From Blastocystis hominis (taxonomy: Eukaryota > Sar > Bigyra > Opalinata > Blastocystidae): a stretch of DNA of 64,000 nucleotides. Both the position numbers and the translations under genes were made by a program. The stretch is from positions 38,680 through 102,679 of the forward strand of contig NW_013171836.1 of the NCBI RefSeq assembly GCF_000151665.1, given 5' to 3'. The notes under the pieces were generated by a model. The model did not search any database. It saw only the letters and a list, made by a program, of their open reading frames with translations, and had not been told where the DNA came from. Shown piece after piece: positions 1 to 36,275 of the stretch; within the stretch, counting starts at the first letter, position 1, and every line of letters starts with the position of its first letter.

Positions 1-101
1 TTGTACTGTCTCAACAGATCAGAGACAAGGTACATTCGAATACCATTATCAAGGCACATACGAATCTTGTAGTCGTAGAAGTCAATCTCTTCGAATTTCA
101 T
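1..101 (-). CDS. N-terminal part of a viral protein, possibly KilA-N/Bro-like (runs off the window)
   Basis: An ATG at 101 (reverse strand) opens a frame that stays open for 33 codons to the window edge. The visible start has an Ile-Arg-Met-Cys-Leu-Asp-Asn-Gly stretch followed by Tyr-Leu-Val-Ser-Asp-Leu-Leu. That spacing recalls the start of KilA-N, Bro-N or MSV199 DNA-binding domains, which are common in large DNA viruses and Polinton-like elements. It sits directly downstream of the protease gene on the same strand, so it belongs to the viral element. Only about 33 residues are visible, so the family call is weak; that this is coding is more likely than not. Confidence 0.45.
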   Translation of the reverse strand, partial: MKFEEIDFYDYKIRMCLDNGIRMYLVSDLLRQY

Positions 102-170
102 TTCTATTTGTATTTATGTATTGAACTCTTTTAAGTACAATAGTTACAGTAGGGGACACTACGTGCCCCC

Positions 171-189
171 GGGGAAGCGAAGCTTCCCC
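171..189. repeat. GC hairpin, 8-bp stem and 3-nt loop
   Basis: GGGGAAGC, loop GAA, GCTTCCCC. It is a perfect palindrome just after the protease stop region (the protease gene reads leftward). A degenerate hairpin (152-170) abuts it, giving the paired arrangement seen elsewhere in the element. Confidence 0.9.
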
Positions 190-666
190 TTACACCCTCT
201 GGATAGCTGGGTCAACAGCGTCGTGCGTGTACAAGTGAAGGAGTGCCAGGTAGCCACAGTTGTTGGCAAAGATCGACTGGTATTTCACTTTGTTCACACG
301 GAACACACGGTTCGTACCTGTCAACGGGAAGTCATTCATCTCGCCAAAGCTGTCCTGGTAGTTCAGTGTTCCGTCGTCTTCACGGAAGCAAGAAACAAAG
401 TGACCGAGCTTACCACCGTCTTCAAAGGGTATCCAGATGATGCAATTCGCTGGTTCTTTGTACTTCTTTGCCAAGGACTTGTACTTGCCCAATTCCATCA
501 CATCGAAGTCGGGTATCTCGAGTTGCTTGGCCAGTTTTCGAACTTCATCGAAAGTCATTGGTTCAGCATCCACATTCATGTATCCATGCTTGTAGAGTTT
601 ACTTAGTACGGAGGAAGCTCTGCTTTGGGGCGACAAAGTCGCCCCGGCGGAACTTCGTTCCGCCAT
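190..666 (-). CDS. Adenain-like (C5-type) maturation cysteine protease
   Basis: This encodes a 158-residue protein with the layout of the adenovirus/Polinton maturation protease. His89 lies in a Gly-His-Phe-Val context, Asp105 follows 16 residues later, Gln130 sits in Tyr-Gln-Ser-Ile, and Cys137 is in Asn-Asn-Cys-Gly-Tyr. The 7-residue Gln-Cys spacing matches the adenain family, as does the Trp-Ile-Pro just before the histidine. Such enzymes cleave capsid precursors during virion assembly. The first ~25 residues are translated from a cluster of GC hairpins, so the natural start may be Met30 (position 579) or lie elsewhere. The next gene upstream encodes a protein with repeated Gly-Gly-Ala sites, a plausible substrate. 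The catalytic set is complete, so the enzyme looks intact. Confidence 0.82.
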   Translation of the reverse strand: MAERSSAGATLSPQSRASSVLSKLYKHGYMNVDAEPMTFDEVRKLAKQLEIPDFDVMELGKYKSLAKKYKEPANCIIWIPFEDGGKLGHFVSCFREDDGTLNYQDSFGEMNDFPLTGTNRVFRVNKVKYQSIFANNCGYLALLHLYTHDAVDPAIQRV

Positions 667-743
667 GCTTCCTCCCGGGGCAGCGTCGCTGCCCCTCAGT
701 GTCGCGGAAGCATTGCTTCCGCGCGGGAGCCACAGGCTCCCGC
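627..743. repeat. Cluster of five GC hairpins
   Basis: Five perfect hairpins stand almost head to tail. Stems and loops are 627-634/638-645, 646-653/657-664, 677-684/688-695, 704-711/715-722 and 723-731/735-743, each with a 3-nt loop. A decayed sixth may precede them at 611-626. They fill the gap between the precursor gene and the protease gene and are read into the annotated N-terminus of the protease. Confidence 0.9.
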
Positions 744-1742
744 TTAGTACACTCTCCTTCGAATCACTGACTCGTGCATCTTGTTCTCGTTCTGTGGAAG
801 GGCTGTGAGGATGCGATTCTTTTTTTTCGTCTGGACTTCAATTGCTTGTGTCTCGTTGTCCAGGTCAGAAATATCGTAACCAGTGCCGGCTTTGCTTTCC
901 TTGCCCTGAATCTGGTTTGCCACATCGCTAACCGTACCCTTCGCCATGTCACCTATCACATTCGCGAGCTGCTTCACGGTGTCCGATCCTGTCTTCTGGG
1001 ATACATAGTTCACACCCTTGTTGATCGCGTTGTTCGCGGCATTCGTGCCAGCATTGACCAGGATATCGGTGATGGGTTTTAACTTGTCGGCATTGTTGTC
1101 GTACCAACCTTTGATCTTGTTCCAGGCATTCTTGAAGAACGTGCCAACACGACTTGAACCGGCGTACAAGGCTCCACCTCGGACTTCGATGTTTTTACTT
1201 TGTCGTTCAATGGCTTTCATGGTCTTCAACACATCGTCGTAGTCGCTAGGGTTGATTCCATTGAGGAACACAGCAGAAGCTCCTCCGAATTTGAGTGCAC
1301 CTCCCTCCTTACCACTAATCAAACTTTTGAGACTCGAGATGATCTGTGGAGCCATCTGAATGAGCGCTGGGATGACCGTGGCAGCGAGAGTACCAAGTGC
1401 TCCGCCTTTCTTAAGTCCGGTCAGCTCGTTCATCAATTGTGCTTCATTGAATGCCAGTGCTCCAGCGGATTTAGAGTCTGTCTGACATGCACCACCTTCC
1501 TTGAAAGCAATGGCTCCACCGGTGTCCTTGGTCGCCCCATTGAAAGCAATAGCACCAGCTGTTTTCGTCTTACTAGCTCGTTTTGGTGTTCGCTTTCGTG
1601 ATCGCTTTGATTGCACTGGTGCTTCGAGTTCCTTGTGTAGATTCAATGTCTTGCGTCGATCCACAATCGTTCCACTATCCTGTTCTCGGAAATCGGGTTC
1701 GCCATAGAAAGCAGATATATCAACAGTGAATGGAATTGCCAT
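744..1742 (-). CDS. Putative virion precursor protein with repeated Gly-Gly-Ala sites (pVI/pX-like)
   Basis: This 332-residue protein has a basic segment near residues 45-60 (Lys/Arg runs). Gly-Gly-Ala tripeptides occur at about residues 75, 83, 113, 147, 153 and 189, often followed by a hydrophobic residue. Adenain-type proteases cut after (M/I/L)xGG or xGx-G, so these are candidate maturation sites; this is inference. Hydrophobic stretches (residues ~117-143) and an amphipathic segment around 200-230 resemble membrane-active or core proteins such as adenovirus pVI or pX in style, not in alignable sequence. It lies between the protease and the coiled-coil gene on the same strand, and a TAAATG sits at its start. 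Family not firmly recognised. Confidence 0.6.
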   Translation of the reverse strand: MAIPFTVDISAFYGEPDFREQDSGTIVDRRKTLNLHKELEAPVQSKRSRKRTPKRASKTKTAGAIAFNGATKDTGGAIAFKEGGACQTDSKSAGALAFNEAQLMNELTGLKKGGALGTLAATVIPALIQMAPQIISSLKSLISGKEGGALKFGGASAVFLNGINPSDYDDVLKTMKAIERQSKNIEVRGGALYAGSSRVGTFFKNAWNKIKGWYDNNADKLKPITDILVNAGTNAANNAINKGVNYVSQKTGSDTVKQLANVIGDMAKGTVSDVANQIQGKESKAGTGYDISDLDNETQAIEVQTKKKNRILTALPQNENKMHESVIRRRVY

Positions 1743-1750
1743 TTATGTAT

Positions 1751-1790
1751 GGGGAGAATGAAATTCTCCCCGGGGAAGCGTAGCTTCCCC
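1751..1790. repeat. Paired GC hairpins
   Basis: Two hairpins lie side by side: a 9-bp stem (1751-1759/1763-1771) and an 8-bp stem (1772-1779/1783-1790), each with a 3-nt loop. They lie just upstream of the start codon of the 332-residue precursor gene. Confidence 0.9.
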
Positions 1791-1860
1791 ATTCGTACAA
1801 AGTGAAAAGAATAATGTCTCCCCTTTGTCGAAGACAACCCCTACATTCCACGTCTAATGA

Positions 1861-4140
1861 TTATCTCTTTTCCACAGCGAACATATCCTGGATCGTGTTA
1901 TATGTTCGCTGAAGATATTCTTCGTAAGTTCCTGTTGCAACAATGTGGAATCTGATGTACTTCTTCACATCGGCTAAATATTGAGGAGTTAAATTATTGC
2001 TATTAGCTACCTGCATGAAGAAATTCATCAAATACTCGTCTTCATTACGCTCACGATAGGCTTTGAATAGACGAGAAAATCCGACGTCATTTGCAAATTG
2101 AGTGAAATTAGGATTGTTTACATTGCGAGCAAGCAGACTTGAGAAAGCAATGAAATCATTACGAATCATTTCTTTTTCAATCTCATCAGCAGTAGCATTA
2201 TCTTCGTTATTACCTTCGTCGATCAGGGCTGCGACTTGATTTACTTGTTCGATTGCTTGAGGTGTAAATCCTTGAGTATTTACAATTTCAGGTTGACGAT
2301 CACCCAAATAGATCACAGCTTGAATTTGTGGTTGATTCATGATCCGTCTATAAGCCTGATTCATCCTGTCATTCATTTGCATATTCTGATCCATTATTTG
2401 TTGCTGGACCATCTGATTATTATAAAATCCATTTGTCAACATGTTACCAAGTTGAGTCTGTCCATTAGCAACATCTGTCAGCAAGTTACCAGTCTGAGTC
2501 TGCCCGTTTTCAAGAGCTAGCAAATGTTTATTCGTAGTTTCTATTTCTTTACCCAGAGCATTCGTGCCATCCAATAATTGCTGCCTAGTCGCCTTTCCCT
2601 CATCCGACAATTGCTGCCTAGTCGCCTTTCCCTCATTTTCAACCGCATTGCCAAGAGCTATCAGATTCTGGTTCGTAGTCTGCAATTCATTTGACACGTT
2701 TTGAAGCAAAGGTGTGAATCGATTGAATGATTCAACCAACCATTTGTTGATTTCTTCATATGCTTTTCCCAACTCAGCAGATACGAATTGCTGAATGAAG
2801 CTATTTCGCTCTAGCCACTGTTTCAAGAAATCATTGTACTGATTCTTCATGAACTCCAACAATTCATCGATTCGCATTTCACTTTGTCTTGGAATCATTG
2901 CTACGATATCAGCAATTGCAGGAGGATCGGGTTTGTTTTCAATACCTTGCAGACGAGCTTCGACTTGTTGCAAATACTGATTACTATTTTCAATCACCGC
3001 TTTCTGTTGATTTACCAAGTCACCAATACTCTGGATCAACTTGTCGTCTCCTGTCGCAATGCTTCTTGCCAGTTCAGCATATCGATCATTCAACAACTTG
3101 ATTTCTTGGTTCGCATTTTGCAATTTATCATTAACACCATTCAACAATTCCAACATCTTAGGATAACCCTTCTCCGCATCTTCTAAGAAGTTGATTCGTT
3201 CTGCTACTTGGGTGACTACTCTGTAAATATTGCCAAGGTTCACCTGGATATCGAAGCTGTTCATCACAGTAATCACTTCATCCAACTTCTCGAGAATGGG
3301 CTTCACATCCATCTGTTGTACGATCTGATTCGTCACATTCAGAGGTTGTTGTTCAGGTTTGATCAACCACCGATCACGTTCAACGCGACCTTCAGCTACC
3401 AAATCTCTATATTTCGTACTACCTCGTTTCGTAGTGTGTGTCACACCTCTTTTATATGCCGTAGTATTATCGTCATTCCACAGCAGGACATCTCGATCTG
3501 GATCACCTTGTTCTGTCACATCGTCTCGCAAGCCAGCAAAATCATTATGAATTATTGCACTCTGTTGAGCAAATGTGTTGATACTTTCTCCCATCTGTTG
3601 AGCTGCACCCGTTATGGCATCAGCAGCATTCTTCATTTCGTTGATGCTGGCTCCAAGATCACCAGGCAAATTCACGATTTGTAATTCGCCGGCCTGTGTC
3701 GTAGGGAAGATGATACGATAGGGTGATACAGGTTCATATCCAAATGGATTATCAAAGATAGCTCGTTTCTCCATATCAGACAACTCGTGATTCACAGATT
3801 GGACAACGATCTTGTTGAATTGTCTCTCAATTTTGGCATTGTAGACCACGTTGTCCTCGAATGAGTACAACAGTACGTTCTCATCGTCAATTCGCTGCAT
3901 TTGATATCCACGCATGTCAGAGACGGATACACGACGACGTTCAGCGGGTGAGAGATTCATGTACGAATCAAACAAGGTTCGCTTCTGTCGCCATTGTTCG
4001 CTCCTCATTCGCTGTTGATTGAATTCACTTTCAACGACTTTATCGAAATAACGATTCAACATCTTGTCCATCATGTTTCTCGACTTCACTTTGTGTGGCT
4101 TGTATCGAATGATTGGAATTGTAGCAACGTATTCATCCAT
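1861..4140 (-). CDS. Viral coiled-coil structural protein, unknown family
   Basis: This is a 759-residue open frame, rich in Gln, Asn, Glu and Lys. The N-terminal ~200 residues look globular and contain a basic region. From about residue 280 to 600 the composition and heptad-like hydrophobic spacing suggest a long coiled coil. Short internal repeats are visible: KATRQQL occurs twice and NGQTQ twice. The C-terminal ~100 residues are again globular and helical. There are no transmembrane segments and no enzymatic motif I recognise. The gene sits between the precursor gene and the 231-residue structural-domain gene. A TAAATG overlaps its start codon. A tail, fibre or scaffold role is possible but unsupported by homology. 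Confidence 0.6.
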   Translation of the reverse strand: MDEYVATIPIIRYKPHKVKSRNMMDKMLNRYFDKVVESEFNQQRMRSEQWRQKRTLFDSYMNLSPAERRRVSVSDMRGYQMQRIDDENVLLYSFEDNVVYNAKIERQFNKIVVQSVNHELSDMEKRAIFDNPFGYEPVSPYRIIFPTTQAGELQIVNLPGDLGASINEMKNAADAITGAAQQMGESINTFAQQSAIIHNDFAGLRDDVTEQGDPDRDVLLWNDDNTTAYKRGVTHTTKRGSTKYRDLVAEGRVERDRWLIKPEQQPLNVTNQIVQQMDVKPILEKLDEVITVMNSFDIQVNLGNIYRVVTQVAERINFLEDAEKGYPKMLELLNGVNDKLQNANQEIKLLNDRYAELARSIATGDDKLIQSIGDLVNQQKAVIENSNQYLQQVEARLQGIENKPDPPAIADIVAMIPRQSEMRIDELLEFMKNQYNDFLKQWLERNSFIQQFVSAELGKAYEEINKWLVESFNRFTPLLQNVSNELQTTNQNLIALGNAVENEGKATRQQLSDEGKATRQQLLDGTNALGKEIETTNKHLLALENGQTQTGNLLTDVANGQTQLGNMLTNGFYNNQMVQQQIMDQNMQMNDRMNQAYRRIMNQPQIQAVIYLGDRQPEIVNTQGFTPQAIEQVNQVAALIDEGNNEDNATADEIEKEMIRNDFIAFSSLLARNVNNPNFTQFANDVGFSRLFKAYRERNEDEYLMNFFMQVANSNNLTPQYLADVKKYIRFHIVATGTYEEYLQRTYNTIQDMFAVEKR

Positions 4141-4182
4141 TTACTATGGGAGGAACAATGTGGGGCGACTTTGCCGTCTCCC

Positions 4183-4878
4183 CTACTTTACTTTGGTGTA
4201 ACAAGATATCGTGAATGAGATGTACACATTCGAATTCAATGAGATCGGACGGTCATTCGCGTCCGTCAGTACCCAGTCAATGTAGTCCAGGTTCGATTGT
4301 TCAATCACATCGATCGATAGGTTGTCCCAGGTGATCATGTTGTTCAGTCCCATCGATACATGAATCAGGTTATCGATCAACGGACTCTTCAGACCGAATG
4401 TTTGAGCATTGATACTACTGTAGACTCGGATCACACTCATGCCATTCGTGATGTCGTAGGGTTCAGTCGCTACCATACCTGCCTCAACGATACCTTCCAA
4501 CTTGAGGATACTCGTGTAATCAGGTGCGCCACTAAGGTCAACAGCGGTCGCCACATCACTGTTCAAGTATGCTCGGTTAACATCGTCTACCTGGATGGAA
4601 TCGGCTATCGCACGGCATAACTCGGTAATCGAGTAGTAGCCAGGACCGACGTTGTACACCATTTCAAACCCTGACAGCATTTGAACCTTCACCACATTCA
4701 TTGCACGAATGTTCCAGAGAGAAGTGGTATCGATCTTGCATGTAATCGAAGTGATCTTGTACACAAGGTCACGAGGCATGATCACTGTGTTGAACGTTTC
4801 ATGGTATCGTTCGTTGTTCTTCGGAATTACTGTATTGTGGTTAATCACACTTACCGGTAGTGCACGATTATGACTCAT
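4183..4878 (-). CDS. Polinton-type structural-domain protein (single copy of the domain)
   Basis: This 231-residue protein shares a domain with the large protein encoded at 5197-8310. Conserved landmarks in order are a Gly-Tyr-Tyr-Ser-Ile-Thr-Glu-Leu segment, Ala-Pro-Asp-Tyr-Thr-Ser-Ile-Leu, Tyr-Asp-Ile-Thr-Asn-Gly, a Val-Tyr-Ser-Ser strand, and a final Asp-x-Asn-Asp-Arg-Pro-Ile strand pair. I recall a similar pattern from uncharacterised structural proteins of animal Polintons/adintoviruses. Role in the particle (fibre, penton or minor capsid) is unknown. Its start overlaps the end of the 110-residue gene by 11 bp. A TAAATG precedes it. The C-terminal third recurs almost unchanged in the fossil at 56.8-57.0 kb. 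Confidence 0.65.
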   Translation of the reverse strand: MSHNRALPVSVINHNTVIPKNNERYHETFNTVIMPRDLVYKITSITCKIDTTSLWNIRAMNVVKVQMLSGFEMVYNVGPGYYSITELCRAIADSIQVDDVNRAYLNSDVATAVDLSGAPDYTSILKLEGIVEAGMVATEPYDITNGMSVIRVYSSINAQTFGLKSPLIDNLIHVSMGLNNMITWDNLSIDVIEQSNLDYIDWVLTDANDRPISLNSNVYISFTISCYTKVK

Positions 4879-5200
4879 TTATTGTGTGGAAGTGAATGCA
4901 CACTGTAATCGGCATTGGCAGGGCAATCGTTGCACCGGTCTTATCGGTCAACGAGAATGACCATTTGCGACTTTTGGGTACCACGACGTTCATGTGTGCA
5001 TTCTCCGTAAACTCCTCGTTCAATACAACCAACGGAGACTGTCGTCGTTCTTGCATGTTGTTCACTCGATCAAGGACAAGGCAGGTGCCAGTCGAATCTC
5101 CCTTCATAGTCACTCTGTCGATTACCATGTCGCTTTTGATGAGATTGTTACTTGTGAATTCATGTTCGTACGTTCGAGCAATGTTGAACACTAGATTCAT
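4868..5200 (-). CDS. Small viral protein with a short form of the structural domain
   Basis: This encodes 110 residues. The last ~35 residues (a Trp-Ser-Phe-Ser-Leu-Thr-Asp-Lys-Thr-Gly core) match the terminal strand pair of the domain in its two neighbours. It is sandwiched tightly: its ATG shares an ATGA with the stop of the 1037-residue gene upstream, and its end contains the start of the 231-residue gene. This packing suggests a late gene block, perhaps with one transcript and translational reinitiation, although a TAAATG at the start may instead mark its own promoter. No independent family was recognised. Confidence 0.55.
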   Translation of the reverse strand: MNLVFNIARTYEHEFTSNNLIKSDMVIDRVTMKGDSTGTCLVLDRVNNMQERRQSPLVVLNEEFTENAHMNVVVPKSRKWSFSLTDKTGATIALPMPITVCIHFHTINES

Positions 5201-8200
5201 TTATTATTTCCTCCTGAAACGGTGAATCCGATTAGCAGGTACACGTTCCCAATGAACGATAGCGGGTCACCATTTTCGTCCTTCAATTCGTACACGATGC
5301 GATCAAGCAATTCAGAACATGGTACCAACATGCGATTCTTGTAGAAGTAATTCTTGTACAAGCTGTCCATCGGGACATTCGCAAGCAGTGGTATCGTCTT
5401 GCTTTTCATGATGTTGCAATACAGCTGTATGTTCGATAGACCGTTCGTGATATCGACAGGATACTCGGCAACCATTGGACCATAGTTGGCATAGTACACA
5501 CCATCGTCGAAAGGGATACGCCATGTATGCGATTGCGATCCTGAAGCGGGAACGATGGTTCCCAGGTTACCACTCAACGAGAACACGTAGTCTGCGTGAA
5601 TGTAGTACCCATCTGTCTCAGCTTTCCATCGTATGTTCAGTGCAGCCGAGTCAAAACACTGGTTCATGTGCCATATCATGTCAGCCTGTGTCAACCGTGA
5701 TGGTATGGTCCACGTGAATGTCTGAACGTCATCTGTGTACGTGATATCAGTCTCGGGGGAAGCACTGCTTCCCTCTTCGTCCAGTGTCATCATTCCGTAC
5801 GGGGAGCGAATCGTCGTGTTAGCCGTGTACGACTCAGATTGTTCCCAGTCAACGAAGGTAGCCAATGATGGAACAACAACTTCATCATTCCTCACATAGT
5901 GGGGCAGCTTCGCTGCCCCGGGGAAGCTTTGCTTCCCCACATACGTAACACGTGTCGGTTGTATGAATTCGATCGACACAGCACGATCGGAATACGTACT
6001 ACCTTTGATCATATTCGTCACATTCAGTCCATCGATGTTTGCCATCGCAAACTCGTAAGGTGATGTCAACTCGGGCATCCTGATGTAGTAATTGCGATAA
6101 AACTCGAAATAACAAGACAGATACACACCACCTGGTTCAGCGTATGGTCCGGGTATAATCTTGAAACATGGATTATCACAAAACAATATGAATCGTGGTT
6201 CTGTACCATTTCGACATCCCATTCGTACTCGACCACCATTATCTGCAATGACATATACCAAGTACCCTCCGAGAGATGCATCTACAAATATCTTATTGAT
6301 CACATTAGCGATCATATTCACGATATCAATAGCGCTATAATGACCTCGTTGGATTGTGAGAGGTCTTTCGCCATATCCACGTATTCCAAGTATAAAATTC
6401 GTCGTATCGATAAACACTTTCGTGTGATATATACTATCCTTGGAATACCAAGGTCCGATCGAAGAACCATTCGATGACACCAAGTCACCTGTATTTTCCG
6501 ATGTGATATGCAATTCCAATTCTGGTGCATAGTCCTTCGCAGTCCATGACATGCTTTCTCTATTGTCATTCACCGTCCACGCAATCGCATTCTGGTGAGA
6601 TGGAGGTAGTTCCATAGCACTCGCATATCGAGCATTGAGTTCATTAAAACATGTGGTTGTAAGAGTATTCATCTTGATCGGGGTAGACGTATCTTCCGTT
6701 ATGTAGAATTCACCACTATCGAGTACTGAGCCATCAGCTAAACGCATCGTGTATGTCGCGAGAGGCTTTAGCAGGAACCGATTATCATTCGTACGCATTT
6801 TCCAGTCATACGCAATGAAGGTGTTTGATCCTATGTACGCATGACCACCAATACCTTGATCATTCGTCATATCAGGTGGTGAATCGCTTTCAGGGTTGAA
6901 CGAAGCTTCCACTGGTCGTTCGATGCACAGATTGCGTACCGTTGATGTCAATTTGAACCATGGAGTCCAACCAAAACCATTGATCGTCGTGTCAACACTG
7001 GATCGATCGAAATACCATCCGTCTGCTTGGACATTGAAGCGAACATGATCAACCTCGATCGTCATGGATGTGAGTGGAAGCACTTTCACCATCTCAGCAC
7101 CGACAGCCTCGATGAACTCGCTGAACGTGTAGTAACCGACAGGCAATGTCAACATGTGCGAGACAGTGCCATCAGTAACAACCACGTGATTACACGAGGA
7201 AGACATGTAGTAGCGCTTCGGGTTATCCACTCCTTTCACCAAGATGTCCGATTCGAATCCGAGGATCGACCTGATCTCTGGTGCATTCGTGAAATCAATC
7301 ATGTAGAAGTGATCTACCGTGATGTGGAACGCATTCTCACCGCTATACACCAATTCGAACAGGGCATCACTTGCATTCAGCTTTGCAATGATCGTTTCGA
7401 TGTCGTATGCACCGCGTGGTATCGTGATCTCTTGAATCGTACTGCCAGCATTGATTAGCACCACTTGATCAGTCGGCACATTGTGCAACACGAAGTCCGT
7501 ATACAACGACACAGACGAGATGTAGCACTGATCGAATGAGAGAGGATTGTCCAGCTTCACTTCCTTCTTCGTGGTATTGCCGAACACTTCAATCATGGAG
7601 AACTGATTAGCGGAAGTGACGCTATTTTCACTTTGCTCGTACACATCCTCAATCGTCAACTGGAGTTCGAATTCGCCGTTCAATCGCATCATCTTGCCAT
7701 CCATATCGCGGAACACGAACATCAATTGATCAAACCGAGTGATCATTGGTATACGCACGTCTTCCACACTTCGCACGTAGTCAGCCGTTGGATCGTCAAT
7801 GATCATCGTGGTGAGCAGGTTGTTGTTCTGGTTGGCAATCTTCAGGTCCGATGATCGCACGATCGTCGAGTAGACCTGAATCACTTGTCGATTTCGCGTG
7901 ATATCAATCACGTTCGATCCACTGAACGAAGCAGGTAGAATGACCGTTCGTCCATCGAAGCCGAGGATCTCACGAATGTCAGGTGCATCTGTGAAATCAA
8001 TGGTGTGTGGAGACTGAATCCAGATACAGCCGAACGACGAGGCATTCGTCGATATGGAAAATGTAGTATCGGTCATCATATTGAGCAAGGCAATGATCTC
8101 ACTGATCGTGTAATAACCAGCAGGGATCGTTACCTTCTCGTCATTGCTGTTAGTAACCACATTGGTCGTGTCTACGTTGTTGAACATCGAACCATTAGGA

Positions 8201-8310
8201 TGAAACAACACAGTCATGGAAGTGATATAGGGATTCTTGTACTTGTACGGATTAACCCATGTAAATGAGCCGTTGGTAGGTGAGCCTTGAATAAGCATGG
8301 AGTAGTGCAT
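5197..8310 (-). CDS. Large multidomain viral structural protein (tandem Polinton-type domains)
   Basis: This 1037-residue protein is built from divergent copies of one ~230-residue domain, at about residues 1-235, 250-470 and 800-1037, with a less clear copy between. Landmarks repeat: a Gly-Tyr-Tyr-Thr-Ile/Phe-Ser-Glu helix, Ile-Asp-Phe-Thr-x-Ala-Pro-x-Ile-Arg-x-Ile-Leu-Gly-Phe, Asp-Ile-Thr, and a closing strand with Asp-x-Asp/Asn-Gly. The three downstream viral genes carry related pieces. It is likely a virion surface or fibre-like protein, by inference only. The frame is intact but contains GC hairpins at 5757-5773 and 5901-5938, translated in frame as unusual Gly/Ser/Ala/Pro-rich inserts. 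A relative of its first ~300 residues survives as a fossil at 55.9 kb. Confidence 0.68.
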   Translation of the reverse strand: MHYSMLIQGSPTNGSFTWVNPYKYKNPYITSMTVLFHPNGSMFNNVDTTNVVTNSNDEKVTIPAGYYTISEIIALLNMMTDTTFSISTNASSFGCIWIQSPHTIDFTDAPDIREILGFDGRTVILPASFSGSNVIDITRNRQVIQVYSTIVRSSDLKIANQNNNLLTTMIIDDPTADYVRSVEDVRIPMITRFDQLMFVFRDMDGKMMRLNGEFELQLTIEDVYEQSENSVTSANQFSMIEVFGNTTKKEVKLDNPLSFDQCYISSVSLYTDFVLHNVPTDQVVLINAGSTIQEITIPRGAYDIETIIAKLNASDALFELVYSGENAFHITVDHFYMIDFTNAPEIRSILGFESDILVKGVDNPKRYYMSSSCNHVVVTDGTVSHMLTLPVGYYTFSEFIEAVGAEMVKVLPLTSMTIEVDHVRFNVQADGWYFDRSSVDTTINGFGWTPWFKLTSTVRNLCIERPVEASFNPESDSPPDMTNDQGIGGHAYIGSNTFIAYDWKMRTNDNRFLLKPLATYTMRLADGSVLDSGEFYITEDTSTPIKMNTLTTTCFNELNARYASAMELPPSHQNAIAWTVNDNRESMSWTAKDYAPELELHITSENTGDLVSSNGSSIGPWYSKDSIYHTKVFIDTTNFILGIRGYGERPLTIQRGHYSAIDIVNMIANVINKIFVDASLGGYLVYVIADNGGRVRMGCRNGTEPRFILFCDNPCFKIIPGPYAEPGGVYLSCYFEFYRNYYIRMPELTSPYEFAMANIDGLNVTNMIKGSTYSDRAVSIEFIQPTRVTYVGKQSFPGAAKLPHYVRNDEVVVPSLATFVDWEQSESYTANTTIRSPYGMMTLDEEGSSASPETDITYTDDVQTFTWTIPSRLTQADMIWHMNQCFDSAALNIRWKAETDGYYIHADYVFSLSGNLGTIVPASGSQSHTWRIPFDDGVYYANYGPMVAEYPVDITNGLSNIQLYCNIMKSKTIPLLANVPMDSLYKNYFYKNRMLVPCSELLDRIVYELKDENGDPLSFIGNVYLLIGFTVSGGNNK
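5757..5773. repeat. GC hairpin inside a coding region
   Basis: GGGAAGC, loop ACT, GCTTCCC. It lies inside the 1037-residue frame and is translated without breaking it. Confidence 0.85.
5901..5938. repeat. Paired GC hairpins inside a coding region
   Basis: GGGGCAGC-TTC-GCTGCCCC (5901-5919) abuts GGGGAAGC-TTT-GCTTCCCC (5920-5938). The pair lies within the 1037-residue frame, which stays open across it. Confidence 0.9.
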
Positions 8311-8346
8311 GGTCTTTCTCTCTTTACCTTAGTCAACAAGACAATG

Positions 8347-8388
8347 GGGAGGAATCGAAGATTCCTCCCGGGGCAACGTAGTTGCCCC
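8347..8388. repeat. Paired GC hairpins upstream of the large viral gene
   Basis: A 9-bp stem with a 5-nt loop (8347-8369) is followed directly by GGGGCAAC-GTA-GTTGCCCC (8370-8388). The pair lies 37 bp upstream of the ATG of the 1037-residue gene. Confidence 0.85.
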
Positions 8389-8439
8389 ATCACATCCATG
8401 GATACCATGGCCTACAATGGAAGTCAGGTTAACATTGCA

Positions 8440-8686
8440 GAAATTTGCCGAAATTGGCAGCCATGGGTTTCCGCGCGTTTCTTGTTATGGACAATACGGT
8501 AGCCAGGCAGGCAATGGCAGAAAATGGCCGGAAATGGGTTGCCGCGGTTATTTGGTAGGAAATGGATTTCCGCGTGTTTCCCGTCATGGCCATCGAGGTG
8601 ACCAGGTAGGAAATGGCCGAAAATAACAAAAAACGGGTTGCCGCGGTTATTTGGTAGGAAATGGATTTCCGCGTGTTTCCCGTCAT
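8440..8686. repeat. Tandem ~99-bp repeats at the edge of the viral segment
   Basis: A 52-bp block is perfectly repeated at 8536-8587 and 8635-8686 (99-bp period). A diverged third copy starts around 8440-8500. Units contain the words AAATGG and TTCCGCG several times. The array lies between the first viral gene (start 8310) and AT-rich host-like DNA, so it may mark the element's upstream regulatory region or its junction. No terminal inverted repeat can be tested because the other end is outside the window. Confidence 0.8.
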
Positions 8687-9076
8687 TCCCCTACTACTAG
8701 TATATCTACAGTCTACTCCATTCTATTGTTGGCAAATATACTATGATTCACATAAAGCACTTAGTAGCTTGTCTTTTCTTCTTTTTATGATTCCTTTCTT
8801 TTCTATTCGCGATTCTATCACATGAAATTACTTCTGAACGCTAATTATTGATTATACTACCTTGGTGTTACATAGAACAATGAGATTACAAATTAAGCTG
8901 TTGTGCATTCTTCTGTTTGACTTTGCACTAATTTATCGCATTGCTAGTATACTTTTCACGCGAACTTTCTTATATAACAACAGTTAATATACCAAGTCCG
9001 CAATTTGGAAGTCAATTTCAAATTGTTTGTTATTAACAAACTAGAAACAAATGGAACTTCGGTCCTGTTTCAATTA

Positions 9077-9540: not shown

Positions 9541-10824
9541 TATATCAATTGTCAATTGAATTGTGTGACTATTTATCTTCATATTTCAAAAACTAGGAAA
9601 TGTGAAATCTAATAACAAACTATCAATTGTAATACTCTTATAATTATACTTTCAATCAGAGATAATAGATAAGAGTTCTACAATTTATCCATTTTCAAGT
9701 TGTACCAAAATAGTATACTTACTGAGAGTAGATCGGCCACTGTATATAGAAATATTTCGCTTACTAATGATAAAATCTATTTATTCATGTATTATAATAA
9801 TATGCAATACAGAGCATCGCTTTCGATACTTTGCTCTAGGAATCACAGCCACCATCTGATTATAACAGTTCTTCTTATCTATATTTCTTCCAAATTGATT
9901 TTGACTTGTGAGTTTGCATTTATTCTTAATTTGCTATTGGTTCTGTCTATTCTATTAGATGAATTGACATATATGATTCAAAAAACAGACTATAATATAC
10001 CCTTTTTAGGCTTGTTATTTGTAACCTTCCCCAGAGAATGGGTACATCAGTTTTATACAATTTACATTACGATCACTCTCTTGTAATAAAGTCAGCAAGA
10101 AGTTCGCATCTAATCATCGTCGTTTTTTGATTTATTTTTGTTTAAATATGATAATTAGCGTATTGATTTCATTTCTGTGACATACTTTGGTATATCGCAA
10201 AGATAATTCTATGCCATAGAGTAGTTTTCAGCATTTCTATTCTAGTAATTACAATTTCGTGATCACATCAATTCCCTTGCTGTTTTGCGATGGTTTGTTT
10301 ATTCCTAGGAATACTAAGGTGCATTTCAATCTGTAATCCACATGAACTCCTCTTATCTGCCTTTCACTCAGAGTTTGTTCTATATATTATCCATGCGATG
10401 AATATCATTTCCTACTTGATTTTGATTTTCATTATCCTTATCTTAACCCTGAATCTACTATTTCTCTACATATTGAAATGATTTGTTCCAGTTTATTATC
10501 ATCAATGACTATTTTACTCTTGTCAAATAGCCGTTATTTCTTACAGATTACAAATGCACTCTTTAGTATTTCCTGTGCGGATTTCCTAAACATGGATGAT
10601 CTCTCTGCATATCGTGGAATGAAGAGTTCGATTCTTTTCCTGTACAATAGTTCTTTTTTAGATACGCTTTTTTATTTGTAATCAAGTTGCCTTGTATTAG
10701 TGGTTCTCGTTTCCTCATTATTATTTCTTGTCCCTATTTCATATATTATAAAATAGGGATTAGGGTACAAACCGAATATATGATATCTATTCTATCATTT
10801 TTCACATTATTTTTGTATTTTAGA
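9541..10824. other. AT-rich intergenic DNA, no supported gene
   Basis: I see long AT-rich runs and several short forward frames (e.g. 9700-10086, 10290-10481, 10478-10681) whose products are almost all Ile, Leu, Phe, Tyr and Ser. This is what random AT-rich DNA gives, and no intron pattern or family motif supports them. The region presumably holds the promoter of the surface-protein gene at 10825. Confidence 0.6.
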
Positions 10825-13800
10825 ATGAAATCTCTATTATTCGTAAGTACTCTATGTATGTCATCGTATCACTACTTACTCTTAGTCTTACTTGTGTATT
10901 GTGACTTAACTTGTTCTTCTGGAGAAACTTATGTCAAGTTTGTGAAAAAGTGTGGCGATAGCAGTGCAATTGAGGAATCTTTCAAAGTATATGATGGATC
11001 GACTCTATTGTATACTGGAGCCAACTTTGCCAACAGGGAAACACGAACGATTGAGCAATGCTTAACCTCTTTCGTCAATAATCAATTCACTGTTGAGCTG
11101 ATCGACTCATATGGCGATTCGTGGTATACTGGATCCTATCTGACTATATTGGGGAAGTCTGGAAATGTAGTTTTCAAAAATATGATGACAGATAATAACC
11201 AAGAATCTTTTCCCTTTTCTCTCTATTATGGAATTGAGCAAGATTCCACTTGGAAGATGACTTCCGGCGTTGCTTCTGCTGGATGGACTGAGTACTCGTT
11301 TTCTGACAGCACTTGGACGGATGTTACTCTTGGTTCTGAGACTACAGTTGAATCTGGTACTCAATATTTCCGCAAGCAGTTCGTGGGTCTTTCAGATATG
11401 GCTGCTTATGATGTGCGGCTGCACTACAAGGCTGGAGTGATTGCCTATATCAATGGAATTGAGGTCTACCGCGACAATCTGCCTGATGGAGCTGTTTCTT
11501 CGACCACTGCTGCGACTGGAGAATATTCTGAGATTGCCTATCGTGGATTCATCCGTCCTGGCTCTGAAGTGGCTTCACAACAATCGATTCTGGCTGTGGA
11601 GCTCCATTTCAATTCTACACAAACTATTGTGGACTTCAATGCCTATCTTGCTATTCTGGCTACCTCTACTACTGAAGGCAATTGTTTTATTTATGCTGAA
11701 TCTACTTATGTGACTTCGAACGGTGGCTCAAGTGTTACCAATATCTTTGATTTCGTTAAGTCAAGTTATTATCAGGCTAGCTCTTCATCCCTTCCTGCTA
11801 CTGTAACCTACTCCTTTGAAGGACCAAGACCCTACATTAACTCCCTCCGTGTTTGGCCTTATACGTCTATTACATCTGCTCCTAGCACATTCTCTTGGCA
11901 AGGATCGAATGATAATTCGCAATGGACAACTGTGTTTACTGTATCTGATGCTACTTATGAAACCAAGGTTTACCAAATCTTTGGTGGTTATTTCTATGCT
12001 TCGCTTTACCCGCACTATCGTCTCAATATTGTTAGTAGCAGTGGTACTAATTATGTTTATGCATATGAAGTCCAACCCTTGATTTGCTCTACATCCATTC
12101 CAACCTCTATCACATTCACTCCTGACTCATACACCTTCTTGGCATCATTTGAAATGGTGTATGTCCAGCCTGATATTTCCGAGTTTACTTCATGTTCAGC
12201 TCAGAACCTTCCTGAGGGTCTTTCAATTGATTCTGTTACTTGTGTGATTTCTGGAGTTGCGGACACGGCTGTTTCTGATTTGACGATCACTGTTACTTCT
12301 GTTATGAATAACAATACATACACTGGATCGTTTACTCTTAATATCCAGGAATGTTCTGGTACAGTACTGAACATTCTACGTACCTATGGATCCAATGCTG
12401 CTAAGGAGAGTTTCGAAATTAAGGATACTTCAACCCAGCAAACAATCATATCTGTTGCTGCCAACTCTGGTCAGGTTAGTAATGAAGATTGGACCCATGT
12501 TGTTTGCGTTACTGGATCAAAGTATGCAGTTACTGTAGGATCCGAAAACAGTTATTGGAGCGCTGCTTCCTTTCTGTATGTCCGTGCTATTCTCTATGGT
12601 GATGAAATGGAAACGATTCTTCGTATGAGATATGATTCGAGAGTCGGTTTCCCTTCATCTCGTACGTTTAATGCTCAGTATTCCATTCTTCCCCATTCCA
12701 ACTGGTATTACAAGCATGGAGAAGTTCCTACTGATTGGTATTCATCAACTTCCACTACTGGATGGACTGAGGGAAATACCAGCAACTTTCCCGACTCTAC
12801 CAACCAGATCCAGCTGTACAAGAAGACATTCACTGTTGCGGACATCAACAACATTGCTGGATTCGTTCTTTCCATCAAGTACAAGTATGGATGCATTGTC
12901 TATCTGAATGGACATGAAGCGTTCAGAAAGGGATTGACGGATACAACGATCAGCACTTCGAGTTATGCTGACAACATTTACACGGATACTCTCTTTCACC
13001 AGATTTCTCTTCCCATCAAGACGGTTCAAGTTGGAGAGATCACTGCTGTGAACTACATCCAACAGGGATCGAATACTATCGCCATTGGACTCGTTGCTGC
13101 CAATGCAAACCAGAAGGAAGCGATCTTCGATGGTGCCATTCGATTGATGGGCGACACGACCACATCTCGTGTCTTTGACTACACTGTTACCTACAGTGGA
13201 TTGGATGGAGATGTATCTGAATGTTTTGAGCAATACTATGCATATGAAGTCGAGCCATCATCATACACGACTAATTATTTGAATATTGCGTTCAACAACG
13301 ATCGTCAAGAATGGATCAACTCTGTGACTATCAAGGCATACTACAGACAGATTAGAGCACAGCCTCGTGAGTTTGTACTAAAGGCTCGAAGTGGAAATGA
13401 TGCATGGACCACGTTGACAACCGTGACTGAGCTTACTTGGTCTCAAGTTGGTCAGGCTCAAATCATCTATTTCCAGAATAATAAGGCATACAACGAATAT
13501 CGTTTTGAAAATATAGCCACAGGTGATTTCCTACAAGAATACTGGAAGTTCAATACCTTGGATATGAGTTCAGTGTACACAACGATGACCATTCCTGAAC
13601 TTGTCTATGATGATATTACCATTTTCAAGGATATTGAGATGGGAGAAGTCTATCCGAACTCTCCGTATTACTACAATTTCCAGATCAGCCCCAGTCTTCC
13701 TGCTGGAATTTCTCTTGACCCGAACACAGGCATGATTTCTGGAACTGCTACCGCTCCAAAGATATCTACAACCTATACCATCACTGCCAGCAAACTTAGT

Positions 13801-15782
13801 GGAGGTACTTCCTCTGTTTCTTTTTCGCTTTCTGTTGAAGTTTGCACTGGGAGCCAATCATTGATTACTTTAGTGGCTCGCACTGATAGCTGGCCAGGCG
13901 AAGGTTCTTACAAGGTCTATCAGGGAATTGGTACAAGTGGAACTGTTGTCGCTTCTATAGATAGTTTTATTACTGGTAGTAGCTTGAATTATGGAGATTT
14001 CTGTCTGGAGAATGATATCTACACTATTCAATTACTTGATTCTGGAGGGGATGGCTGGTTTAATCCTGCTGGGTATTATCTGACCGTGGATATGGGTGCA
14101 ATGATTTTTGAAATGGGACAGCTCCCTGCGAACACTCATTCCGTAAGCACAATGTTTTCTTCATATCTTCCGTTCCAGATTGAGTATACCGAATGGAAGG
14201 TCAACTATGATTGGGTGGAGAATTGGAATACTGTTGACTTTGATGACTCTGATTGGGAATCTAAGAAGGCGAGTCTGATTGGAACGAATAGTAAAATAAC
14301 CACCTACATTCGTAAAGAAGTAAACATTCCAGATATTGGCAACTACCATGTGCTCAATATTCGTGTGAAATACACTGGAGGTGTTGTTGCTTACTTTAAT
14401 GGATTCAAAGTGGCTCGTTTTAATATGGGGGAAATCTTCGATTCGGAGACGATGTCATTTACCCTCCATGATGAAAAGGTATTCTCCATGTTCCACATAA
14501 TTATGACGAATGTTGCTGGAAGAACGGGAAAGAACATGATGGCTTTTGAAATTCATCGTCCTATGGATCAGTCATCGTCAAATCCGATAGTGTTCGATGC
14601 TACCGGAGTGTTTGGAGTGAATGAGTGTTCGATTGTTGTGGACACTTACTCATCAATCGATGGTTCGGAGGTTGATATGTGCTCTATTGAAGAACTATTT
14701 GATTTGAATCCCACAACTTACGGATATCAGACAAACGTTATGGGAACCTATCTGGAATGGGCGGTGGAAAACTTGGAAGGAACCAAGTTCAATAGTTTTG
14801 CTATGCAAACCGTTTATTCTCGTAGTGAGTATGGATTCTCTCTCTATGGTCGCAGAAATACATTTGACGATTATATCACAGCAGTTGAGACGGTTGATCA
14901 GACTACTCAGGCACTAAGGCGCAATGCTTGGTCTGCTCCTGTGGGTACTATTGGATTCAAGCAGCTTCGATTTGAAGTGGATGTCGCTGCATCAAACATA
15001 GTCTATGTGAGTTCCTACATGCTTCAGTACTGTAAAGTGAGTGGAAGTGGATCATGTCCTGGTGTTGATGAATACCCTTCTGTGGGAGAAGGAGAGATTT
15101 CACCTGGCAATTGCGAAAAGGGATATCGAGGCTATTCTTATCGTACTTGTTCCAATGGTCAATTGGGAGAGATTGACTACAGACATTGCATTCAGCTCGA
15201 ACCTAAAAATCTGACATATGAGCACAATGAATACAACCTGACATTAGATATTACGATATCCATTGCTCCACCTGCATATGAGAATGTTAGTGAAGAGTTT
15301 TATTTGGCCGAAAATAACCATCTGCCTCTTGGGCTTACGCTAAACCCGATATCTGGAGAGATTGTTGGAACTCCGGTAATGGATATCGGAAAGTCAAATT
15401 GTACAATCTTTGGAAAGAATCAAGTGGGTATTGTGTCTACGACACTCCTATTCAATGTCCAAAGAGGAAGGTGTGAAGAAGATGGCCACTTCCCAATGAC
15501 TTATGTTGGAAAAGTGGCTGTTTATGAATGCGCATCGGATGGTCTTTATATTGGAACACAGAAAAGGCCTGCAAGCTTGGCGAAACGGGTGGCGAATGGC
15601 AAAGAACGAGTGGGTTCTGTATTTCGATTATTTTCTTAATTGTACTGGTAGTAGTAGTTGTTGTGATTATTGTGGTTATTGCGCTTATTATAGTTTATGT
15701 GAAGAGAAGTAAAAAACAGCAAAATACCAAAAGAAAATCTGTTTCTAAAAAGGGAAGTGTGAAAAAGGATATGAATGTCTAA
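10825..15782 (+). CDS. Large type I membrane surface protein with He_PIG-like domains (one apparent frameshift)
   Basis: Translation most likely starts at the ATG at 10825, since it opens a signal peptide (hydrophobic run ending near Thr-Cys-Ser-Ser); the frame is open further upstream. About 1,600 extracellular residues follow, with three rounds of a module: a cysteine-bounded segment with Asp-Ser-x-Gly-Asp-x-Trp, then a jelly-roll-like part with Tyr-x-Asn-Gly. Putative Ig (He_PIG) segments read Leu-Pro-Ala-Gly-Ile-Ser-Leu-Asp-Pro-x-Thr-Gly. Cysteine-rich sushi-like ends follow. The first frame stops at 15639. The transmembrane helix and Lys-rich tail are in the +1 frame (to 15782), so one base seems missing near 15570 (AAAAGGCC). 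A sequencing error, a real frameshift or an unusually short 20-nt intron could explain it. Likely an adhesin or receptor; ligand unknown. Confidence 0.7.
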
Positions 15783-32600: not shown

Positions 32601-34981
32601 ATTTGTTGCTTTGCCGCTCGTCGCTGACGTGTGTAGATATGAGCTGGTTTCCTCCTCCTCCTCGCCTTTCATCGCATCGCTCTTCCCTCCTCTGTCCTCA
32701 TCGACAATGCGCACGACCGTCTGCAGCAAGTTCCAAAAGCAGCTGAAGGATCTGCTCACGATCCTGCAGGCTTCCCAGCGGAAATACATCCGTTGCGTGA
32801 AGCCCAACGATAAGAAGCGGCCTCGACTCTTCGACTGCGTTCACTCCTTGGAACAGCTTCGCTACAGCGGCGTTTTCGAGGCTGTGAAGATCCGAAAGGA
32901 GGGCTATCCCTTCCGCTACAGCCACCAGCAATTCGTCCATCGCTATCGCTGTCTCCCGATGACCAAAGGAATCTCCGTCTCTTCCGATGTTCGACAGGCG
33001 ATCCAAGACGTCATCCGCTCGCGTCCCGAGTGCAAAGATCGCATCTACGTCGGGAGATCGCTGGTGTTGTACCGAGCCCCGGAGCACCGTATTCTGGAAC
33101 TGGCGCGTAATTTGGGTAATCGCTGATTCTCATCTTCACTCTCTAGCCTTGGACGATTTGCTTCCGTCTCTCCAGAGCATGATCAAGTGCAAGAGCGTGA
33201 TGGTCGGCCTCCCGCTCTACAGCCAAGTGCAAGACGTGCTGACCGTACTCTCTTTTTTTTCCAGTTTGACTGACGCCTAGAAAGCGCTTCAAACGCGATC
33301 GCTGAGCGCCATCGACGAGGCTCTTCACTCCGTCGAGTCCTCCATCGCCACCGTTCAGCAGCTGCTTCATTGCTCGATTCCCGTGGTCCGTCAAGCTCAG
33401 GGCGCTGCCGCCTTCCTGCAAAAGATCGAATCGCTGGAAGGCCAAGTGCGAAGCCTTCTCGAAGGACCGATCCTCCAGAATCTTCCCGTCTCTCTCTTTC
33501 TCCTTTCCTTCACTTCCAGACCTTGCTGGCCGCTGTCGAAGAGTTGGAGTCGCAGCCCTCGCTCCTCCCTCCTCGCATTCAGGAGCTCACCGTCGAGGCT
33601 CGAGCTCGTGTCCAGCAGTTCGCAGCCTCGTTGATCGAGCCGGACGTAAGGAATGGACGATCGAGTTCACTTGAAGCTTCGCGAGGCGCTCTACACGCTG
33701 GAACGCGCGCAGATCGAGCGGCTGGTGGAGCAGGCGAAGCGACTCAATTACTCGTCGGAGACAGTGGCGGAGGGAAAGCGGCTGCTGGCTTTGCAGGACG
33801 AAGAATTCTTCGAGTTGGAGATCCAGAGAGCGGAGGAATTGGGAGTAGGCGAGGCAGAGAGGAATGAGGCCAAGGATATCTCGAGGTTGGTGGACCGTAA
33901 GATCAAGCTGCGCGATCTGCTGCTGAAGAAGCAGGAGGACAAGTTCGTCTTCGAGAAATACCCGAAGCTGAAAACGCGCGAAGACTACGCGAGCTACAAA
34001 ATCTTCACGGTGAATCGGCGATGGTGGAGAGAAACGGCCTACTCGTTCATCACGCTGGCGATCCCGACGTGCCTTACAACGCTCTCGAAGGACGCAGACA
34101 AGCACGGCATTCTGCTGTTCAAAACGATCCAAGGGTACATGAAGGATCGCAAGTATCTTCTTCTCTCCCTTCTGCCTATCGCTGTGTAGATACAACATGG
34201 ACGGCTTCCAGCTCGCCTTCGAGATCCTGAAAATCCTCAACAAAACCAACGCGACGCCGGGTCTTCGCACGGAGGTTTACTGCCAGCTCATCAAGCAGCT
34301 CACGGGCAACCCGAGCGAGATGAGCGTGTCTCTCGGCTGGGAGCTCATGGCGATTCTTCTGTACTACGTCCTTCCCGAAGAGGATTTCATTAACTATCTC
34401 ATCGTCTTCCTCTGGAACCACGCGCCCACTCCCGACAAGTCGTTTTCCAAATCGTTTTCTCCTCTAGATTCGTCAAGGTCCTCAACAACAGCTATTATTC
34501 CTCCAAGTACAAGCGCGACAGTCACTACCAAGCCGGCTATCGCACGCCTCCGCGCGCCGCTTCGGAGATCAGCGAGTTTTTGCAGGACTTCTCCACCGAT
34601 TCTCGCCGCTACAGCATCGAGAACAAGCTCTCTTCCTACAACGCCACCGCGAAGCTCACCTTCTCCAACAGCAGTCAAGAAGGCAGAGCCACGACCCTCG
34701 CCAAAGCCTCCAAATCGCCCAAATCGTCCGGCTTGGGGCTGCGGAACGGCGGAGCTCCGGCCTGTCCTGCGCCGTTGCCGCCGACGATGCGAAAGGCTCC
34801 GGCGAAGGAGACGGCGATCGTTTTGTATGATATTACGCTGGAAATCAACCCGAACGTGTTGGAATGCAAGGAGGGAGATCGGATTGTGATCGAGGAGGAT
34901 TTCGGGGATTGGATCCGCGCGACGATGAACGGAAAGGAAGGATTTGTACCTTATAACTACATTGAGCGAGTTCGGAATTGA
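29674..34981 (+). CDS. Class IV-type myosin with GYF and WW domains, MyTH4 and SH3
   Basis: The many introns are ~30-33 nt (e.g. 31328-31360 and 32069-32098). The start at 29674 encodes a GYF_2-like domain (Trp-Tyr-Tyr-Val-Leu-Asn-Gly-Glu-Gln then Gly-Pro-Ile-Ser). A Ser/Pro-rich linker with a Gly-Ser run and Lys-Pro-Ser repeats follows, then a WW domain (Gly-Trp-Glu-Glu-Arg-Tyr ... Tyr-Tyr-Tyr-His ... Trp-Asp-Lys-Pro). The motor head has GESGAGKT (~31267), switch I Asn-Asn-Asn-Ser-Ser-Arg-Phe-Gly-Lys and switch II Asp-Ile-Phe-Gly-Phe-Glu. After the neck comes a MyTH4 domain (to ~34430) and a C-terminal SH3 (34816-34978). WW-motor-MyTH4-SH3 is the class IV layout known from Acanthamoeba and some stramenopiles; the added GYF_2 domain is unusual. 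An actin-based motor likely working at membranes or cortex. Stop 34981. Confidence 0.9.
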
Positions 34982-35080
34982 AAGCGTGGTACTAGGGTCT
35001 GTAACCATGAATATTAATTTGGTGTGTAACACAGTAGGATCCAGGAAGCTATCTAAGGTAAAACCCTACAGCTGTATTTC

Positions 35081-35088
35081 TGTTTGTT
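35081..35088 (+). terminator. TGTTTGTT 3'-end motif of the myosin gene
   Basis: An exact motif about 100 nt after the stop and 47 bp before the next gene's ATG. Confidence 0.65.
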
Positions 35089-35135
35089 AAAAAGGAGTTT
35101 TATAGTTATGACATTCTAGTTATTATTATTCCAAA

Positions 35136-36275
35136 ATGATTATCTGGGTACCCATATGGTTTACAATTGTTATTCTGGTGACGACCTTGAACAAGACGCT
35201 GTTCACTTCGTTAAAGTGCCCATATCCCCTTTCTATCACTATGGTTCACGTTATTCCTGTATTTAATCCTCAGATCCACATGCTTTCATGTGCCGTATAC
35301 TCCACTCTAATGAAGTACACCGCGCCCAACTTTTTCAAGTATCGTCCACTGAAGGAGGGAGAACTGCGGAATTTGATCTTAGTTAGCGTCATTTTCATCG
35401 TTAACATTGCCCTTTCAAACTCTTCACTCAAGTTTAACTCTCTTGCTTTGGATCAAGTATTCTCTTTTATTTTTTCTTTCTGAATCCAGATGTTCCGCTG
35501 TGCTATGCCGGTTTTCACTTGTGTACTGGAGTTTATCATCTATGGCAAAGTCCGTTCTCTTTTAGTCTACCTCTCTCTGATCCCTGTAATTCTTGGAACC
35601 ATGTTGGTGTGCCTTGGTGATGTTGTCTAGCGGGTCTGTGGTAATCGGTAGATTCAGGGTACCATTTTTGGAATTGTTCTCCTGTTCATCAGTTGTACCG
35701 TCTCTTCTCTGAAGGGAATCATCACCAAATACCTTCTTTCGGGAGAAGAGCCGATCAGCACATTTCAGCTTCTGAACTACGTTCGTGGCCTCTTTCCCTG
35801 CTTCCTTTTAGAACAGCATGTTCGCTTTTTGTGAAATCTTCCCCGTTACTCTCATCAATGACCGCACTTTTTACACATCCTGGCTTCCATCGTACATCCT
35901 CTCCGCTTGTTTTTATTGACTCTAGCGCCCCTGTGACCAGTCTCCTGATCCTGGTAGTGCACGGCATGCTGGCGTTCGCGTTGAATATCGCGAACTTTAA
36001 TGCGGTGAAGGAGGGCGGACCCTTGATGATGAACGTTGTGGGCAATGTCAAGCAGGTCGTTATGATTCTGCTTTCTGTGTTCATGTTTGGAAATAAAATC
36101 AAGCCGATCGGCATTTTTGGAAGTGTTGTCTGTATTTTGGGAAGCATGTGGTATTCATTCGGTGGGTCAGTGGAAAATCGAATAATGGATAGAAACTATG
36201 AAGTCGAACAAGGTGGAGAGTGCTGTGAAGGAGGAAGAGAAGGCCAAGCTCCTTGAACAAAAGGAATCTGTCTAG
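35136..36275 (+). CDS. Triose-phosphate/nucleotide-sugar transporter family membrane protein (SLC35/TPT)
   Basis: Seven exon blocks join through introns of 30-34 nt into a ~10-helix protein of the drug/metabolite transporter superfamily. Landmarks are Asn-Lys-Thr-Leu-Phe near the start, Pro-Leu-Ser-Ile-Thr-Met-Ile-His-Met, Ser-Asn-Ser-Ser-Leu-Lys-Phe, Leu-Asp-Gln-Met-Phe-Arg-Cys, Leu-Lys-Gly-Ile-Ile-Thr-Lys-Tyr, and the late Asn-Val-Val-Gly-Asn-Val-Lys-Gln block typical of TPT members. It probably exchanges phosphorylated sugars or nucleotide sugars across a Golgi or ER membrane; substrate cannot be read from the sequence. The last exon ends in a Lys/Glu-rich cytosolic tail. TAG (36273) is followed after 3 nt by TGTTTGTT. 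Confidence 0.87.

Follow-up and report, generated by a model that had tools for sequence, protein, structure and literature searches.

A Polinton-type element in the genome of Blastocystis hominis and its many copies

The window analysed here is a 64,000-bp stretch of the Blastocystis hominis genome (18.7 Mb, 40 contigs), located at C22:38680-102679, where C22 is contig NW_013171836.1 and a window base equals the C22 position minus 38679. Its left end carries a block of long minus-strand frames, which raises the question of what element they belong to, whether it is complete, and whether its genes are in use. A preliminary description, made from the sequence alone, had read them as late genes of an integrated Polinton-type virus in a Blastocystis-like host; the host was named correctly, and gene content, inverted repeats, and target duplication support the reading. 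With very little doubt, what occupies the left end of the window is the right-hand portion of a full-length Polinton (Maverick, Polintoviricetes), a linear double-stranded DNA (dsDNA) virus that inserts itself into the chromosome of Blastocystis. Direct support comes from the anatomy of the element, its integration footprint, its copy number, the predicted folds of its capsid and penton proteins, and selection on its polymerase and structural genes.

Borders and integration footprint

Window positions 1-8698 constitute the right 38% of an integrated element of 22,585 bp (C22:24793-47377), which lies in minus orientation in the window and extends 13.9 kb beyond its left edge. The terminal inverted repeats that had been predicted were found: they are 307 bp long, align without gaps at 96.1% identity, and both start with AGTAGTAGGGGAATGACGGG. 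The right border is the end of the inverted repeat at 8698, and not position 8400 as originally placed. Inside the inverted repeats, a 99-bp unit occurs in tandem (1.9 copies, window 8503-8686), and repeat length varies among copies.

The 6-bp sequence AGTATA is present on both sides of the element as a target duplication. At two paralogous empty sites (C40:614670-616684 and C21:36517-38904; 91-95% identity to the element's flanks), parts of both host flanks are adjacent, with a single AGTATA between them. The left flank is matched over 1186 of 1187 bases in C40 and 814 of 1187 in C21, and the right flank over 825 and 1572 of 1896 bases, respectively. Because the flanks join around a single AGTATA at these sites, we conclude that the element was inserted with a 6-bp duplication and that the misjoined contaminant considered in the preliminary description is excluded. 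An assembly artefact, or a contaminating virus contig fused to host DNA, is further contradicted by host genes on both sides and by capsid matches on 29 of the 40 contigs, and we give it virtually no credence. Among nine element copies whose ends were compared, including that of the window, six have an exact 6-bp duplication and one matches at 5 of 6 positions; in the other two (one judged by eye) the two flanking sequences differ, perhaps through recombination among copies.

The left flank gene is divergent from the right flank gene, and both encode putative Ig domains (PF05345), with the Polinton between them. In the 2011 Blastocystis genome paper, 26 proteins carrying IPR008009 are named as potential adhesins (PMC3129679; this and the other papers are cited from excerpts of their text). 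A further Polinton copy at approximately 21-36 kb of C21 (polymerase C21:31547-36058, capsid C21:25417) adjoins the empty paralogue of the window's insertion site on that contig, which suggests independent Polinton insertions into two paralogous intergenic regions.

Gene content and predicted proteins

Six long minus-strand frames and the 5′ end of a seventh, encoding a KilA-N domain protein, were identified in the window's part of the element, in agreement with the six to seven first counted. When window 1-8400 was resampled 200 times (first order), the longest ATG frame reached a median of 129 aa and a maximum of 304 aa; the 332-, 759-, and 1037-aa frames exceed every resample and are thus not due to chance, and the shorter late frames are taken as real because they recur in the genome. 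The capsid, ATPase, polymerase, and integrase genes expected to the left all lie within 13.9 kb, the ATPase being recognised by its P-loop only. Replication and capsid genes are therefore both present within the approximately 15 kb in which they had been sought, and the Polinton reading stands.

The 1503-aa polymerase matches PF03175 (E 2.2e-15), contains a DTDS palm motif, and has homologues in animals; its DNRC and HFLYIKD stretches are what we take to be the vOTU domain of Polinton polymerases. The integrase matches PF00665 (rve; E 9.9e-13). In the 460-aa ATPase candidate, a P-loop (APSKSGKS) and the stretch IYIFDD were identified by eye, and a convincing match was found neither in Pfam nor among PDB sequences. 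The 330-aa protein has a KilA-N domain (PF04383, E 4.8e-9), which is frequent in large DNA viruses and phages, and may be a regulator of the element. The complete His-Asp-Gln-Cys set claimed for the 158-aa protein was seen by eye in the order that presumably marks adenain-type proteases, and its frame recurs as 71 pieces at approximately 66 places (from 70 candidates), two of them with a stop. The family was recognised by neither a Pfam profile nor a PDB sequence, and a Peptidase_C5 (PF00770) search returned no match in this genome or in 14 control genomes; the adenain/Ulp1-like assignment is accordingly given as putative.

The major capsid protein, modelled on a relative (P0121), has a predicted double-jelly-roll fold, and the 231-aa protein was modelled as a penton whose best match among solved structures is that of mavirus, tied with Sputnik and adenovirus. 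PDB sequence profiles gave no credible match to either (best E 0.68 for capsid and 0.046 for penton), and the six window proteins yielded weak matches only in Pfam and PHROGs. Three window proteins had been thought to share one structural domain. Profile comparison identified a common penton domain in two of them, the 231-aa and 1037-aa proteins (E 1.8e-16, 2.2e-8, and 1.4e-6), the latter with three or more penton-like domains (at residues 28-226, 264-371, and 944-1033). The 110-aa protein was rejected as the third: one profile gave E 0.05 but no genuine alignment, and another gave E 0.11. The 1037-aa protein and the 414-aa repeat protein are likely vertex or spike parts, and the 759-aa protein is probably coiled-coil. 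No convincing family match to the 332-aa protein was found in Pfam or PHROGs, its weak match to a toxin translocation domain being regarded as chance; it is possibly a pVI-like membrane-active or core protein.

From this gene set, we infer how the element may replicate, be packaged, form particles, and spread, including the roles of its ATPase and protease. Its own protein-primed family B polymerase (pPolB) would copy it from the inverted-repeat ends, and the rve integrase would insert the linear copy, leaving the 6-bp duplication. Where a copy has intact capsid genes, its double-jelly-roll capsid and penton, together with the packaging ATPase and the cysteine protease, might then build and mature a particle. 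The capsid gene of the window copy is interrupted and lies in two frames (Table 1), so this copy is probably not capsid-competent, although the interruption could be an assembly error.

Table 1. Features of the element and its right flank (window positions unless marked C22).
Feature	Position	Strand	Size or basis
Target site duplication AGTATA, second copy	C22:24787-24792		6 bp
Left terminal inverted repeat	C22:24793-25099		307 bp
Polymerase	C22:25122-29633	-	1503 aa
Minus-strand frame	from C22:29732	-	
Protein of unknown function	C22:30213-30722	+	169 aa
Protein of unknown function	C22:30730-31305	+	191 aa
rve integrase	C22:31256-32239	-	
121-aa protein	C22:32482-32847	+	121 aa
Repeat protein, fibre-like by eye	C22:32896-34140	-	414 aa
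Capsid gene, split over two frames	C22:34296-34646 and 34805-35587	+	
180-aa protein	C22:35654-36196	+	180 aa
ATPase candidate	C22:36322-37704	+	460 aa; P-loop
KilA-N domain protein	C22:37788-38780 (5′ end in window 1-101)	-	330 aa; PF04383
Putative adenain/Ulp1-like cysteine protease	190-666 (C22:38869-39345)	-	158 aa; motif seen by eye and recurrence
Protein with GGA-rich repeats and hydrophobic stretch	744-1742	-	332 aa; frame
Probably coiled-coil protein	1861-4140	-	759 aa; weak coiled-coil matches, all below cut-off
Minor capsid (penton) protein	4183-4878	-	231 aa
Protein of unknown function	4868-5200	-	110 aa; penton domain not detectable
Putative vertex/spike protein	5197-8310	-	1037 aa; at least three penton-like domains
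Right terminal inverted repeat	8392-8698		307 bp; contains 1.9 copies of 99-bp unit
Target site duplication AGTATA	8699-8704		6 bp
Host gene, large protein with putative Ig domains (right flank)	10687-15639	+	PF05345

Copies, selection, and age

Genome-wide copy counts are lower bounds. The capsid gene yielded 79 matching pieces at 75 places; leaving aside nine split or partial rows, the frame is open for at least 420 aa without a stop in 60 of 70 near-full-length rows. None of the 31 long polymerase matches (31 scored of 297 candidates) contains a stop, and the 1037-aa protein has 46 matching pieces (44 scored of 443 candidates), 34 without and 12 with stops.

The ratio of nonsynonymous to synonymous divergence (dN/dS), calculated from best-scoring copies that hence lean to intact ones, is 0.077 for the polymerase (45 pairs, 10 copies; mean divergence 5.0%), 0.132 for the capsid (10 pairs, five copies), and, summed, 0.216 for the 1037-aa protein (36 pairs from nine of 10 fetched copies, one without a frame of 1000 aa being dropped). 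By these ratios, the polymerase copies are under purifying selection, and the structural genes (capsid and 1037-aa protein) have been under selection. Because the divergence is mostly synonymous, it suggests that the copies diverged with their genes in use, and not as decaying insertions. Mismatches between the paired terminal repeats number 0-1 in four of seven elements and 12/307 (the window's), 14/326, and 31/328 in the other three, from which several insertions look young, with the window's not among the youngest. The earlier proposal of a recently active or still functional virus consequently fits the family and its other copies better than the window copy with its interrupted capsid gene.

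Capsid and integrase genes are not equally abundant. The integrase was identified as 125 pieces at 112 places, compared with 75 places for the capsid, and 47 of the 112 lie more than 6 kb from any capsid match. Four of these capsid-less loci were examined (C34:344001-353500, C8:171501-181000, C37:268501-278000, and C3:444501-454000), and all are deletion derivatives that join pieces of the 1037-aa gene, integrase, and polymerase, with a similar junction between the 1037-aa gene and the integrase in three of the four. They have kept the integrase and lost the capsid genes, as might be expected if the elements were now transposons only, spreading in the nucleus by polymerase and integrase without particles and retaining capsid genes from a viral past. 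A copy nested in another Polinton points the same way. Against this explanation, which we regard as rather unlikely, stand the predominantly open capsid frames and the low dN/dS of both structural genes, the latter in best-scoring copies only. Inverted repeats were sought in three of the deletion derivatives, and none was clear (one weak pair in one locus), so these derivatives are not taken as mobile. The nested copy (C34:495866-518817) is inserted in the 759-aa gene of the other Polinton, and its flanking bases translate like the start of that gene.

A more far-reaching version of the viral reading is that a Polinton virus circulates in Blastocystis and that its intact integrated copies still make particles, with the single-chain, multi-penton-domain 1037-aa protein on top of the vertices; free genomes would then make up part of the 22-24 kb contigs described below, and the virus-like particles of old electron microscopy might be Polinton virions. 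We offer this only tentatively and consider it somewhat doubtful. We know of no demonstration of a particle form for Polintons sensu stricto.

Relatives, classification, and significance

Searches returned 154 homologues of the penton (120 listed), 85 of the capsid (all listed), and 147 of the polymerase (120 listed). Most penton and capsid homologues appear to be metagenome sequences because their contigs are short. The longest contig reaches at least 20 kb for 11 of 85 capsid homologues, ten of 22.2-24.1 kb, near the length of the element, and one of 32.0 kb; contigs of at least 20 kb also carry 10 of the 120 listed penton homologues (longest 23.6 kb). The 22-24 kb contigs fit free genomes and fit equally well contigs that stop at repeat ends; they were not accepted as proof of a free virus, because an integrated repeat in many copies also yields contigs that end there. 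IMG/VR scans with capsid, penton, and alignments gave no confirmed relative, although near records may be omitted from such a scan.

In a midpoint-rooted polymerase tree of 53 tips (52 of the 120 listed homologues plus the window's polymerase, sampled without a virophage outgroup or MELD virus), the window's sequence, two from B. hominis, and 27 others form one clade of 30 tips with support of 1.0 and a long stem, separate from the proteins that are named from animals and fungi. Blastocystis Polintons are a new, deep lineage of a known kind, with dozens of copies in the genome.

When compared with predicted structures of viral proteins, the capsid and penton models each matched MELD virus sp. 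best (taxid 2834287; BFVD entries A0A8S5L5M3, A0A8S5L5C7, and A0A8S5L5B1), a virus presumably derived from human metagenomes. In structure alignments, its capsid is 71% identical to the capsid relative P0121 and one of its proteins is 50% identical to the window's penton, whose second match is a 996-aa "putative penton capsid protein" of the same virus. By these figures, MELD virus sp. and the Blastocystis Polintons would be the same lineage, which suggests a host for a virus that public databases place, hostless, among unclassified viruses.

Polintons are defined by terminal inverted repeats of 100-1000 bp and a 6-bp target duplication. The element has pPolB, rve integrase, 307-bp inverted repeats with AGTATA, double-jelly-roll capsid, and penton. 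Animal Polintons (Polintoviricetes) likewise combine pPolB, rve integrase, double-jelly-roll capsid, penton, inverted repeats, and 6-bp duplications (listed in part in PMC11071308); their polymerases in Haematobia, Stomoxys, Sycon, and Elysia are 24-29% identical to that of the element, which differs in having the additional 1037-aa multi-penton-domain protein and the KilA-N gene. In the excerpts of the same paper, Adenoviridae are without integrase and chromosomal integration, in contrast to the element with its integrase and integration footprint. Two adintovirus proteins occur among the matches of the capsid model, at 10-12% identity only. The adintovirus gene plan resembles that of the element, and adintoviruses are described as animal-tropic in the title of Starrett 2021.

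A mavirus-like virophage or Polinton-like virus (PLV) dependent on a giant virus, in place of a Polinton sensu stricto, would be consistent with mavirus as the best, though tied, solved match of the penton model. Mavirus has an rve integrase, but we know of no giant virus of Blastocystis, and those polymerase homologues outside the lineage that bear a name come mostly from animals. Mavirus too has pPolB, and the pPolB described for mavirus-like virophages is largely stripped of its exonuclease domain (TP-vOTU-PALM), whereas most PLVs lack both pPolB and rve integrase, which are both present here (PMC11071308). A virophage or PLV therefore seems improbable.

Trichomonas vaginalis offers a parallel in another mucosal protist, with Maverick-Polintons in massive copy number (2,224 and 4,841 capsid copies in two assemblies, against 75 places in Blastocystis) whose capsid gene was identified late (PMC10120064). 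The text of that survey of protist genomes, as excerpted, does not mention Blastocystis, and PMC10675990 does so, in its excerpts, only through a cited paper. No report of Polintons in Blastocystis was found in the literature searched, which lay outside supplements (e.g., of PMC10120064) and Starrett 2021. The published ST7 genome of 18.8 Mb has 25% repeats, in an excerpted text without the words virus, viral, integrase, or Polinton (PMC3129679), and Polintons may account for part of the repeats reported in 2011. A compact protist genome of 18.7 Mb is heavily colonised by capsid-bearing Polintons, which would make up an estimated 8% or so of it if 70 copies were full length. Since Blastocystis is cultured, whether Polintons make particles can be tested directly in a protist of the human gut. 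A review of Blastocystis virus-like particles, as excerpted, cites Starrett 2021 for RNA viruses (PMC12835684), at odds with the title of that paper, which names dsDNA viruses.
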